From Candidatus Woesearchaeota archaeon (GTDB lineage Archaea > Nanobdellota > Nanobdellia > Woesearchaeales > GW2011-AR4): a DNA stretch of 35,607 nt. The translations under genes and the position numbers were made by a program. Shown in pieces: positions 129 to 27,652 of this stretch. Positions within the stretch are counted from its first letter, which is position 1; every line of letters begins with the position of its first letter. The DNA lies in the NCBI GenBank assembly GCA_016192985.1, contig JACPTC010000034.1, forward strand, positions 1 to 35,607, given 5' to 3'. Under the pieces are notes generated by a model. The model searched no databases. It was not told the DNA's origin and worked only from the letters and a program-made list of their open reading frames with translations.

Positions 129-208
129 TGCAGAGTAGAAAATAATAAGTATTTATAAAACTATATGAAGAAATAGCTATACATAAATATGTAATGCTCC
201 CGCCGGGA

Positions 209-238
209 AAGCCATGACGAAGACGAATCTCCAATCAC
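209..238 (-). other. tRNA-Glu intron 2 (30 nt), T-loop, position 59/60
   Basis: T-loop TTCAAA^T is split. Relaxed BHB: TTCA (244-241) opposite TGGC (214-211), 3 of 4 pairs; bulges AA^G and TT^T; intron helix TGAT:GTCA. Confidence 0.78.
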
Positions 239-279
239 TTTGAACCCAGGTCTTCGGATCGAAAATCCGAAATGATTGG

Positions 280-322
280 TTATCCCAAAAGAACAACCAT
301 CATATGATGGATTTTCTTTCGA
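280..322 (-). other. tRNA-Glu intron 1 (43 nt), D-loop, between G19 and position 20
   Basis: 3-4-3 BHB: central helix GTCC (328-325) : GGAT (285-282); bulges GG^T and AA^C; 8-bp intron helix CGAAAGAA (321-314) : TTCTTTTG (293-286). Confidence 0.8.
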
Positions 323-365
323 CCGGACTACACTACGGGAGCAAAATTAAGTGGGCCCAAAGGGC

Positions 366-485
366 GTTTCACCAACCTTTCCATCTGAAAAGCTGTCATC
401 GAGGGGTTTTTGAAAAAATCCCTCCCACGCTTTCTTTTGGTCAAGCTTTTCTTTGCGAAGCTCTTGCGAGCAAAGAAAAGGTTGT
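366..485 (-). other. tRNA-Ile intron 2 (120 nt), T-loop, position 59/60, with internal hairpins
   Basis: BHB: TTCA (491-488) : TGAA (371-368), bulges AA^A and AC^G, ~10-bp intron helix CAACCTTTTC:GGAAAGGTTG (one unpaired G). Internal inverted repeat CTTTTCTTTGC / GCAAAGAAAAG. Confidence 0.8.
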
Positions 486-507
486 TTTGAACCCTTGACC
501 TACGGCT

Positions 508-537
508 CGCTTAGGTTCATTGTTTAGAGCAGAGCCA
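508..537 (-). other. tRNA-Ile intron 1 (30 nt), canonical position 37/38
   Basis: BHB: CTTA (543-540) : TAAG, bulges TA^T and CG^A, flanked by anticodon stem ACGGT:GCCGT. Confidence 0.83.
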
Positions 538-670
538 TATAAGACCGTCGCTCTAACCAGGCTGAGCTATGGGCCCACAAATTTAAGATATTTTAAACAA
601 TTTAAAAGGTTTTCTGAAACTGGAAAAGTTTTGGCATTAGTTTTAAAAATTAGGCAATGATTCTATTATT

Positions 671-7786: not shown

Positions 7787-7886
7787 TTATATTTATTCCT
7801 TTTGGAATATTTCTGGCACAAAAGTTTTTATAATTCCACATGATTTATCATTGTAATGGTTAATTCTGATTATAAAAGGTGGTAAA

Positions 7887-9080
7887 ATGGCGCACATAAC
7901 ATATGTTACTAGCGAGAGCGTTACGGAAGGGCACCCTGACAAGATTTGCGACCAGATAAGCGACTCTATTCTTGACAATTTATACGTTCAGGATCCATAT
8001 TCAAGGGTTGCTGTTGAATGCTTGACTACAACAGGGCTGATAGTTGTTGCCGGAGAAATCACAACACGCGGCTATGCAGATGTGCAGGGCATTGCAAGAA
8101 GGACATTAAGGGAAATAGGCTATACAAATCCCCAGTTTGGAATTGACTGCGAGGATGCCGGCGTTTTAGTAAGCATACACGGACAAAGCCAGGATATTGC
8201 CCAGGGTGTTGATGAAAAAAGCGGCAAAGAGCAGGGCGCAGGCGACCAGGGAATGATGTATGGATATGCATGCACAGAAACTCCTGAGATGATGCCGTTG
8301 CCTATTATATTGGCGCACAGGCTGACAATGAAGCTGGCTGAAGCACGGAAAAAAGGACTCATACCTGATCTTGGGCCTGATGGAAAGTCGCAAGTTAGTG
8401 TTGAATACCACGATGGAATTCCAAAAAGGCTAGGTGCAGTCGTCATTGCCCAGCAGCATTTGGAGAAGATAAGTGAGGAAGAGTTGAGGGAAGAGATAAA
8501 GGAAAAAATAATCTATCCTGTATGTGGCAAATGGATTGATGAAAACACTAAAATATACATTAATGCCACCGGAAAATTTGTGATAGGCGGACCCGAAGGC
8601 GATTCAGGAGTTACGGGAAGAAAGATTATTGCAGACACTTATGGCGGAGTTGGAAGGCATGGCGGAGGAGCATTCTCAGGCAAAGACCCGACTAAAGTGG
8701 ACAGAAGCGGGGCTTATGCAGCAAGATATGTCGCAAAAAATGTAGTTGCAGCAGGCTTGGCGGATAAATGTGAAGTCCAGCTGTCATACGCAATCGGAGT
8801 TGCGCAGCCAACATCAATCAATGTTGACACTTTTGGAACCAACAAGATTCCAGAGGAGAAAATTGCTGAGCTTGTCAAAAAACACTTTAAGCTTACACCA
8901 AAATGGATTATCGACCATCTGGACCTAAGAAGGCCCATTTACAGGAAGACAGCGGCATACGGGCATTTTGGAAGAAGCGATCCTGATTTCACGTGGGAAA
9001 AGACTGATATGGCTGATACCCTAAAAATAGAAGCGGGATTGATGAAACCTTTGCGAGCTGAAGCAAAAATTATAGGCTGA
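7887..9080 (+). CDS. metK: S-adenosylmethionine synthetase (bacterial-type)
   Basis: [70 protein letters not shown]. Confidence 0.97.
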
Positions 9081-9186
9081 AAATTTTGGTGTTTTTTATT
9101 TTAATTCTTGATATTTATTTCTTTTTAATTACTTTATGCATTAAATATATTAAGCAGCTTTAGTTTAATGTGAAATTGGGCTTAAA

Positions 9187-10401
9187 ATGATTTACATCGA
9201 GCTTATTATTGCTGTTTTGCTCGGTGTGCTGTCCGGGGTGATTACGGGCCTGACACCAGGTTTACACATAAACCTTGTCGCTTTGATTCTTTTTAGTTTA
9301 TCACCAATATTATTGGGCTACACAAATGTCCTTGCAGTTGCTTCTTTTATAATTGCGATGTCAATAACGCATACTTTCACTGATTTTATAAGTGCAACTT
9401 ATCTTGGCGCCCCTGCTGATGACACTGCTTTGGCTGTTCTGCCGGCTCACAGAATGCTGCTCCAAGGCATGGGGCATGAAGCTGTAAAATTGACCGTAAT
9501 CGGAAGTTTATTATGCTTAATTTTAACAATTATGCTATCGCCATTATTAATAATTACAGTCCCCCTTATTTTTTCTTATTTAAAAGATTATATCGGGTGG
9601 ATTTTATTTGCAGTTGTTGTTTTTATGATTTTAAGGGAAGAGAATATGAATAAAAGATTTTGGGCTTTTGTGGTTGTTGCTTTATCTGGAATCCTTGGGC
9701 TGATAGTTTTTAACATACCCAATCTTAAAGATCCATTATTGCCAATGCTGTCGGGTTTGTTTGGGGTTAGTGTGCTGCTTTTAAGCTTAACGCAAAAAAC
9801 CGTTTTGCCTATTCAAAGAACAACCGAAATGATAAAAATTAAAACTAAAAATATGTTTAAAGCATTAGGTTCAGGAATTTTCTCAGGTTCTATTGTCTCA
9901 ATATTTCCTGGACTTGGGCCTGCCCAGGCTGCAGTAGTCGCCAGCCAGCTTGTTGGAAAAATTGACGCTTTTAGCTATCTCATACTTGTTGGCGGAATCA
10001 ACACGGTCTCGATGATTATATCGCTGGTAACGTTGTTCACCATTGAAAAAGCCAGAAACGGCTCGATTATTGTTGTGCAGCAATTGATTGGAATCATAGA
10101 CACCAGCACGCTTATCATGTTTTTTGCCGTTGTTTTGGCGTCTGGCGGCATTGCAACATTTTTAACATTGCATGCCAGCAAAGTTTTTTCATCGGCAATT
10201 AATAACATCAATTATCAGGTTTTGATGATTTTTATCATTCTTTTTATTGGAGCAATCGTGCTTTATTTTTCCGGCCTTGTTGGCTTTTTGATTTTGATAA
10301 TTGCAACATTCATCGGATTAATACCAAATATTGCAGAAGTAAGCAGAAGCAGCTCAATGGCTTGCTTATTGGTGCCGATAATTTTGGTGAATGTTTTGTG
10401 A
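9187..10401 (+). CDS. TctA-family (DUF112-like) membrane transporter
   Basis: GVLSGVITGLTPGLHINLVAL, internal second GLGPAQAAV motif, ~11 TM. Confidence 0.8.
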   Translation: MIYIELIIAVLLGVLSGVITGLTPGLHINLVALILFSLSPILLGYTNVLAVASFIIAMSITHTFTDFISATYLGAPADDTALAVLPAHRMLLQGMGHEAVKLTVIGSLLCLILTIMLSPLLIITVPLIFSYLKDYIGWILFAVVVFMILREENMNKRFWAFVVVALSGILGLIVFNIPNLKDPLLPMLSGLFGVSVLLLSLTQKTVLPIQRTTEMIKIKTKNMFKALGSGIFSGSIVSIFPGLGPAQAAVVASQLVGKIDAFSYLILVGGINTVSMIISLVTLFTIEKARNGSIIVVQQLIGIIDTSTLIMFFAVVLASGGIATFLTLHASKVFSSAINNINYQVLMIFIILFIGAIVLYFSGLVGFLILIIATFIGLIPNIAEVSRSSSMACLLVPIILVNVL

Positions 10402-24718: not shown

Positions 24719-27652
24719 ATGAATATAAGTCTTGCGGAAAAGGTAAGATATCCTTTTTTGCCCAACCCAGTCAAAAGAGAATTGCTGGAAGAGTTTTTTA
24801 CAATTACAAAAGAAGACGGGCAATTTCTAAGGAAAATCAAGCAAAAGAAAAATCTGCTTGCGCTTGCTCTGCTTCTGAAAGTGCATTCTTATCTTCATTA
24901 CTTTCCATTTAAAATAAGCAACTTGCCAAATCCCATAATTGATTATGTTGCAAAGCAACTAAAAAGAAATCCCAAAGACCTTGAATCTTATGATGATCTG
25001 CGTTCTGTAAAGCAATATCATTCTAAAATAATCAGAAAATATCTGAGATTTTGCGCTTTTGAAGACAAAGCAGAAACTGTCAATACACGGATTTATGAGC
25101 ACGCCAGCAAGACGGATGTTCATATTGACATAGTAAAGGAATCGATTAGAAGAATTATAGTAGAAAAGATAGAATTGCCTTCTTTAAGCGTCATAGAAAA
25201 ACTTGCCTCATCTGCTGTGGTCAAAGCAAACAAAAATTTGTGTGATAGAATAGAGCAATCTCTAACAGCAGAACAAAAGCTAATGATTGAAAGCCTGATA
25301 AAAGAAACGGGAGGATCAAAGGCATCAGAATTAAGGTTGCTAAAAATAATTCCCGGAAAGGCTAATATCAATACACTGCATGACCAAATAAAGCTTCTTA
25401 AAAAGTTGAAAGCGTTCAACATTACAAAAAGCCTGATGCGGACAATTCCAGTAAATAAAAGAAGCTATTTTGCAGAACAGGGAACAGAGTACAATATTCG
25501 CGATTTAAGAAACTTTAACGTTGAGAGAAGGCATGCGATATTATCATGCTTTGTCTACAGGAATTACACAAAAACAATTGATAACATTCTGTCAATTTTG
25601 ATAAAAATTGTAAGAGGAATGCACAACAGATCAATAGAAAAGTTTGAAACTATCTGGCTCAGAAAAATAGCAAAATCCGCTTCAAATTTCAGAATATTGG
25701 AAGACTTAACCGGGATAATTCTTGAATATATTGACGAAGATGGAAAAATACTCAAAAAGAAATTAGTGGATTACAAGTCAGTTGAAGAGTACACACAAAT
25801 CAATTTGGAAGCGAAAAGGATTTCTGGCGCTGAAACTGACCACTATGCTTTGCTGATAAACTACTATGGATATTTAAGAAGGTTCAGCAAAATCATACTC
25901 AACACTTTGGAATTCAATTCCAATATTAAGAACAACCGCATAATAATGCACATAGACATCCTGAAAAAGAATCTTCATAATAGCCCAAATTTTAAATTAA
26001 ACCCGGACCTTGTCCATGGGAAATGGAGGAAATACATCTTTGACAAAAGCGGAAAATTTAATCCAAAATTCTTTGAACTTTATGTTATTTCTGAAATTGC
26101 AAATTCTTTGGATTCGGATGAGATATGGGTCAAGGATAGCGAAGAATACGGTTCACTCTATGATTGCCTTATGCCAAGAGAGAAATATGAGCTTAACAAG
26201 AAAAAATATTATGAAGAACTGCGATTAGACATGGATCCAGAAAAATTTGTCTTCAGGACAAGAAGCTCCCACATAACTGCATGCAATAAATTTGAGTCTA
26301 GCCTGCCAAAAAACAAGTACGCTAGAATTAAAGACGGAAAGTTAAGCATAACTCCCCTTGACAGAAAAGATGAGCCGCAATCCATAGTTGGCTTTAGGCA
26401 AGAAGTTTTCAAAAAAATTGGCTATGTGGATTTGTCAAATATTTTAATAGACGTGCAGAATTGGCTTGACTTTTGCGAATACTTCAAGCATCTTGGCGGC
26501 AAAGTAAAGAAGAATTCGAAAGCGACAATTGAAAGATTATTAGCTACTCTTCATTCTTATGGCTGCAATTTGGGACCAAGCCAGACGGAACGAAGCACCA
26601 AATTCGGCAGAAAGCAGATTATTGAAACAAAAAAGAAATACTTTACAGAAAAAAATCTTATTGGGGCAAAAAACGAAATTGTGAATCGTTACAATATGCT
26701 GGATGTAACCGATTGGTGGGGTGATGGAACCTCTTCAAGCTCCGATGGAAGAATGATAAGGTCATATGAAGACAATCTAACAGCTTCATTTAATATCAAA
26801 TACAAAGCGACTGGCGCAATGGTTTACAATCTCATAAATGATAAGCAAATTGCACTGTGCTCAATTCTTATACCGTGCACTGTGTATGAAGCAGAGTACG
26901 TACTTGACACTTTTTATGACGAAGACAACCAGATAGAAACCATGCCGGAAATAATTCACGTGGACACCCACGGCCAGACAGAAGTGCTCTTTGGATTTTG
27001 CCATTTGCTGGGAATGCAATTAATGCCGAGAATAAAAAACATAGGAGATTGTGCGTTGTACAGGCCCAAAGACAACAATTACAAGAATGTTGGTGTAATT
27101 CTAAAAAATGTGACAAACTGGAAACTCATTAAGGATAATTATGACGACCTGATATGGATGATGGCATCTATGCAAGAAGGATACGCAAAACCATCTTTTC
27201 TTCTGAAAAAAATGTCTTCTTACAACAAGACAAGCACTGCCTTTATGGCTTTTAGAGAGCTTGGGTTAGTTGCAAGAACAATGTACATCATGCAATATGC
27301 AAGCAGTAAACAAATAAGAAGAATGGTTCAGGTTGGATGCAACAAGTCAGAACAGTGGAATGCATTCCAGAAGTTTATCTATTTTGCACGAAACGGCGAG
27401 ATAAACACAAACGATTTTATGACTCAGAGGAAATCAATCAGCGCTTTGGAGCTGGTTTCAAATTGTGTCTGCTACTGGACAGCTTTCGTCATGGATCGGG
27501 TTATAAAGCAGATGAAAAAAGAAGGCAAAAACGTTAAATACTCCGATGTCAGTTACATAAGCCCATTGAGCACGCAGCATATCACAAGATACGGCAAGTT
27601 TGAGTTTGATTTGGAGAAGAGGAAGAAGGAATCAAAGTTAAATAATTTATAA
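24719..27652 (+). mobile_element. tnpA: Tn3-family transposase TnpA (977 aa)
   Basis: N-terminal DUF4158-like region; DWWGDGTSSSSDGRMI, EIIHVDTHGQTEVLFG, LMPRIKNI, SALELVSNCVCYWTAFVMDRV near the C-terminus. Confidence 0.85.

Follow-up and report, generated by a model that had tools for sequence, protein, structure and literature searches.

The two tRNA genes and their place in the tRNA set

The window, that is the whole stretch of 35,607 nucleotides analysed here, is contig C10 of a Candidatus Woesearchaeota MAG (1.26 Mb in 65 contigs, 77% complete). On its minus strand there are two neighbouring tRNA genes, tRNA-Ile(UAU) and tRNA-Glu(UUC), each of which is interrupted by two introns (Table 1). 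Both genes, their four introns and the identical T-loop site 59/60 had been proposed in the initial annotation, and all of these stand: ARAGORN accepts the spliced 75-mers as tRNA-Ile(tat) and tRNA-Glu(ttc), both of them perfect cloverleaves. The proposed intron positions were also right, except for the D-loop junction of tRNA-Glu. The intron lies one base further upstream (322-280) when the cut follows the second bulge base, and the mature sequence then reads GUCCGGCCAAUCAU, which is the conserved archaeal Glu sequence.

Table 1. Features of the tRNA-Ile and tRNA-Glu locus, with positions in the window
Feature	Position	Strand	Description	Evidence or remark
tRNA-Ile(UAU)	352..576	-	exons 576-538, 507-486, 365-352	ARAGORN on spliced 75-mer; orthologues in genus
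Ile intron 1	508..537	-	30 nt, position 37/38	BHB
Ile intron 2	366..485	-	120 nt, T-loop 59/60	copied element family member
Element core GAAAAGCTTGACCAAAAGAA	432..451	-		6 exact copies in genome, all in tRNA genes
Spacer CTTAATTTT between tRNA-Ile and tRNA-Glu	343..351	-	9 nt	
tRNA-Glu(UUC)	195..342	-	exons 342-323, 279-239, 208-195	ARAGORN on spliced 75-mer; orthologues in genus
Glu intron 1	280..322	-	43 nt, D-loop	genus-wide conservation
Glu intron 2	209..238	-	30 nt, T-loop 59/60	unrelated to Ile T-loop intron

It had also been expected that gene finders miss such tRNAs. On the unspliced locus ARAGORN reported no tRNA, with introns allowed or not, and the Rfam tRNA model reached 24.6 bits only, which is below the threshold; calls were obtained from the spliced sequences alone. 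When the identical excision pattern was applied to 1,500 shuffled pieces of the region, none of them gave a tRNA. The predicted spliced sequences are found in relatives which have no intron at these sites. G001 and G011, which have no Ile T-loop intron, carry the predicted Ile T-arm, with one T-stem difference in G001, and G004, which has no Glu T-loop intron, carries the predicted Glu T-arm. An intron similar to Ile intron 1 is present at the same place in G001, G002, G003 and others. Both loci are thus presumed to be working tRNA genes, which would be transcribed as precursors.

A Group I intron reading was dropped, as Rfam gave no family above its cut-off anywhere in the window. Apparent homing-endonuclease introns of 0.5-1.8 kb in the tRNA-Ile genes of relatives were rejected as well: tRNA-Ile ends normally there and the distance is the spacer between both tRNA genes. 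In another part of the window, a 977-aa ORF on the plus strand (24719-27652) combines Tn3-family DDE transposase and DUF4158 domains, which is probably unusual on an archaeal contig.

Intact intronless copies had been named as the sign that the two genes are pseudogenes. BLAST of the locus found no second copy of tRNA-Ile(UAU) or tRNA-Glu(UUC) in the assembled genome, where at 77% completeness further tRNA gene copies could be missed. Other archaea can read AUA with the help of TiaS. A search of 59 genomes of the order, ours among them, found TiaS (Pfam: PF08489) in none, while the four archaeal controls have it. In eleven ORFs of the window, 3.9% of the codons are AUA, and tRNA-Ile(UAU) is the only AUA reader detected. 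Since TiaS is absent while AUA is used at this frequency, tRNA-Ile(UAU) is needed and its gene should be essential. Because tRNA-Ile(UAU) was found in only 2 of 167 archaeal genomes surveyed (PMC6000648), this is an unusual yet coherent decoding set. The absence of TiaS throughout these genomes, together with the presence of tRNA-Ile(UAU) in the genus, makes it probable that AUA is decoded without agmatidine.

The Rfam tRNA model gave 18 hits on the whole genome, most of which are stretched by inserts. We located the tRNAs of this genome by targeted searches only, with an intron-aware parser and resolution by eye of the loci that did not fit it. By approximate and partly manual counts, there are 26 identified tRNA genes with about 39 introns, and Val(CAC) is the only one without an intron. 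With one intronless gene among 26, a large part of the tRNA genes in such genomes goes uncalled in practice.

Splice-site motifs and the splicing endonuclease

The bulge-helix-bulge (BHB) geometry had been counted about right in the initial annotation, as three complete motifs and three of the four central pairs at Glu 59/60. Ile 37/38 and Ile 59/60 each have four central and three exon-helix pairs, the latter with one extra unpaired intron base, and the centroid fold of the Ile minihelix gives the same bulges. The BHB in the Glu D-loop is complete, with 4/4 pairs in the central helix. Its GUCC/GGAU pairing is kept in 10 out of 12 relatives checked, 3/4 pairs being counted in the remaining two, and the intron helix h' varies on both sides among relatives. 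Glu 59/60 combines its 3/4 central pairs with 3/3 exon-helix pairs and an ideal h' of 4 bp.

For a comparison of exon and intron bases, 60 T-loop introns from 18 genomes were parsed by script. The parser could take central-helix pairing into account in placing the boundaries; a check for alternatives showed that T-stem and acceptor pairing leave each boundary unique. An Ile intron of G048 (20 nt, central helix 3/4) was left out of the 60, and the row labelled as Ile for G020 is a Val tRNA intron. Exon base 57 and intron base -6 are A:U in 48 introns, G:C in 10, G:U in one and A:A in one (Fisher p = 1.8e-10, which overstates independence as the sequences are related). Arg, Glu, Val, His and the C43 tRNA all show this change, and it is seen within the Val and Glu orthologues too. 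Such covariation is what BHB splicing predicts. The central helix has 4/4 pairs in 49 of the 60 introns, and an ideal 3-nt 5' bulge is found in 16 only. In the introns of the element family described below, an additional base stays unpaired opposite the 5' bulge, and an alpha4-type EndA of narrow specificity may be inefficient on such a site. We infer from these motifs that the Ile and Glu introns are spliced in the cell: the splicing endonuclease EndA would cut two BHB motifs per precursor and the exons would be joined to a 75-nt tRNA.

The genome has one EndA gene of 198 aa with both domains (Pfam: PF01974 and PF02778), which is of the alpha type. It is closest to NEQ205, its closest solved relative, and to the EndA of M. 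jannaschii. Reading the alignment by eye, the catalytic Tyr, His and Lys are retained. A 9-residue gap lies opposite the A. pernix insert, leaving a short loop as in M. jannaschii. Going by the loop positions described in the literature, the aligned sequence has neither the CSL/ASL loop with its key Lys nor the inserts found in A. pernix and ARMAN-2. Neither a second subunit nor a three-unit chain was found in this 77% complete genome, in which a divergent beta subunit could be missed. Among the 59 genomes searched, one PF01974+PF02778 gene per genome is the pattern with few exceptions, also in genomes rated 100% complete; G013 and G002 have a second hit, partial or full.

A broad-specificity EndA had been expected for this genome, and the search gave instead a single two-domain gene of the alpha type that lacks the CSL insert. 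In reviews, non-canonical introns are linked with (alpha-beta)2 or epsilon2 EndA (PMC4090602, PMC6379350). Nanoarchaeum equitans and ARMAN-2 are likewise ultra-small archaea with disrupted tRNAs, but their EndA is of the (alpha-beta)2 or epsilon2 type with broad specificity, unlike the single alpha-type gene without CSL insert seen here (PMC6379350, PMC12397907). Either near-canonical BHBs are sufficient for an enzyme of the alpha type, or a divergent partner escaped detection. The rule that links non-canonical and multiple introns with a broad-specificity EndA is called into question, since only an alpha-type gene without the known loops was found.

T-loop introns across the genome and the genus

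Twelve T-loop introns at 59/60 were found in the genome, in Ile, Glu(UUC), Glu(CUC), Pro(UGG), Ser(GCU), Val(GAC), Arg(UCG), Arg(CCU), His, Asp, Gly(CCC) and C43, the last being the 3' half of a Leu- or Ser-type tRNA. Eight of the 12 belong to one element family, with intron lengths of 53-294 nt. The 120-nt Ile intron has its kin, at the same site and in the same orientation, in Pro, Ser, Val, two Arg, Glu(CUC) and the C43 tRNA. A gain or spread of introns between the two neighbouring genes had been suggested, and of this the general idea holds. The T-loop introns of Ile and Glu(UUC) (120 and 30 nt) share no similarity, so nothing has spread between these two neighbours; the kin of the Ile intron sit in unlinked tRNAs.

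The longer copies are similar from splice site to splice site, as in Ile and Pro, whose introns align over positions 1-119 of 120. Near-identical introns also occur across amino-acid identities. The introns of Arg(UCG) and Glu(CUC) are identical at 94 of 95 positions, and their single difference, CGAA versus UGAA, restores the pairing with exon base 57 (G in the Arg tRNA, A in the Glu tRNA). Ser(GCU) and Val(GAC) have a nested insert in common (170 and 128 nt), which is nearly identical apart from an internal indel and flanked by GTGACC repeats. Elsewhere in the genome this insert was found in one copy only, with one mismatch, beside tRNA-Val(CAC), and the orthologous introns of G018 (Ser) and G009 (Val) are without it.

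Of the exact copies of the element core GAAAAGCTTGACCAAAAGAA, five lie in T-loops at 59/60 and the sixth in the anticodon loop of His. Among the copies with one to three mismatches, three in this genome are outside tRNAs, as are a few copies in other genomes, so that a purely tRNA-bound element was rejected. In a set of 36 genomes from the family, there are 20 core copies with at most one mismatch, of which 17 are in or beside tRNA genes (contexts judged by eye). Since the core is conserved in sequence, no covariation is claimed inside the element. On contig C29 of G000 (7826-9226, L136/L137), two relaxed element copies directly abut the start codons of a pair of adjacent genes encoded on the opposite strand.

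The C43 tRNA 3' half (L067/L220 in G000, at about 1000-1250 on the minus strand) is of Leu or Ser type and carries the element intron in its T-loop. No 5' half was found within 600 nt upstream, and a pattern search was also blank; this is a candidate split tRNA.

The Ile site 59/60 is empty in eight genomes of the same genus (G001, G002, G004, G010, G011, G013, G015 and G016, parsed by script). G001 and G011, both with an exact empty site, share the T-arm GGGTTCAAAGCCC, and the Ile intron was therefore inserted exactly between A59 and G60 without target duplication. Our genome has a 30-nt intron at Glu 59/60, where G018 has the element, G001 an intron of 136 nt, and G004, G009 and G019 none. 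At Pro 59/60, all 12 resolved relatives have unrelated introns of 16-56 nt, and the 122-nt element is found here. Position 59/60 is in use across the whole genus. The Glu and Pro occupants differ among relatives; the site itself is thus old, and the introns that fill it are exchanged over time. In Arg(CCU) of seven relatives (L193-L199), the intron lies inside the T-stem and not at 59/60, so its position differs between orthologues.

Origin and spread of the T-loop introns

As a whole explanation, we consider it likely from the sequence data that both loci are working, spliced tRNA genes, that 59/60 is an intron hotspot and that one element was copied into at least eight tRNA genes. T-loop position 59/60 would be the hotspot in this Woesearchaeota genus. 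The exon UUCR (54-57), which is nearly invariant, would give one strand of the BHB central helix, and because of this any insert whose 3' end is UGAA or CGAA followed by two bulge bases would be spliceable. Such inserts are presumably tolerated, the covariation itself being observed, and selection would act only against unspliceable ones. In this species, copies of one such structured element are seen at the T-loop intron site of at least eight tRNA genes, Ile(UAU) among them, where it has gone into or over these introns with no duplication of the target. Copying probably takes place at the DNA level, by ectopic recombination or gene conversion, or by element-like transposition, between tRNA T-arms.

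A rather doubtful alternative is that the T-loop introns are old and inherited, with a dispersed palindromic repeat inserted inside them repeatedly, so that the similarity is that of the repeat and not of moving introns. Unrelated introns do occupy 59/60 in many orthologues (Pro in 13 of 13 resolved, Ser in 12 of 14), repeat copies with up to three mismatches also lie outside tRNA genes, the repeat is present inside anticodon-loop introns of His, Pro and Arg, and nested inserts exist. Yet the similarity reaches both splice sites, over positions 1-119 of 120 in Ile and Pro and 95 of 95 in Arg(UCG) and Glu(CUC), Ile is without a T-loop intron in the eight same-genus genomes, two of them with the same T-arm, and one nested insert is common to two tRNAs and missing from their orthologues. 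Insertion of a dispersed repeat into pre-existing introns could explain part of the spread, as in the case of Pro(UGG).

We regard it as slightly less plausible still that the introns come from tRNA-targeting integrative elements, whose integrase would recombine an intron-bearing att site with the T-arm or 3' end of a tRNA, a route that was proposed for Caldiarchaeum tRNA-Thr (PMC3293823). The element is found just 3' of tRNA-Gln in G012 (L155), G018 (L156) and G004 (L157/L088), where copies of the tRNA-Gln 3' end are repeated beside it like leftover att sites, and a tRNA 3' half is part of a tandem repeat on C30 of G000. Next to tRNA-Gln, however, the element has the opposite orientation, the T-loop copies are without flanking tRNA repeats, and no integrase was noticed beside these tRNAs. 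That the Ile and Glu loci are decaying pseudogenes or chance cloverleaves, neither being found unspliced by ARAGORN or Rfam, is very improbable given their perfect 75-nt products, the shuffle control, the orthologues across the genus, the exon-intron covariation, and, in the absence of TiaS and of a second copy by BLAST, the role of Ile(UAU) as sole AUA reader detected.

The preferred reading, a copied element at a T-loop hotspot, resembles known systems in part. The initial annotation had named Thermoproteales as the group best known for multiple non-canonical tRNA introns; the host here is a Candidatus Woesearchaeota instead. Intron transposition in Thermoproteales (Fujishima 2010), as far as it is described in PMC4090602 and PMC4033280, has in common with our case near-identical BHB introns in different tRNAs, several introns per tRNA and non-canonical positions. 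Going by the same descriptions, our case differs in its DPANN host, its focus on T-loop 59/60, its long structured element, its nested inserts, empty sites and exon-intron covariation, and its single alpha-type EndA in place of the (alpha-beta)2 enzyme. In the Asgard Atabeyarchaeia and Freyarchaeia, introns are found in 92-95% of tRNA genes, many of them non-canonical and often several per gene; this is another lineage, and a copied intron family is not known to have been described in that study (PMC11291895). Caldiarchaeum tRNA-Thr is also a case of recent intron gain with a possible mobile-element origin and tRNA fragments nearby, whereas here many tRNAs have one intron family at one site (PMC3293823). 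In the literature searched, with most subscription journals and preprints outside its scope, no report of a spread of tRNA introns in DPANN or Woesearchaeota was found. Intron transposition itself is known from Thermoproteales, and the spread in Woesearchaeota resembles it.

More tentatively, the 59/60 element is possibly an archaeal mobile unit comparable to introners, namely a BHB intron that spreads by itself and has ends matching the universal T-loop. If this is true, the host EndA would excise each new insertion into a tRNA gene from the transcript. For the question of how archaeal tRNAs gain introns, this genus offers many copies, exact empty sites and diverse introns, and with them a fixed site at which gains, replacements and compensatory repairs can be followed.
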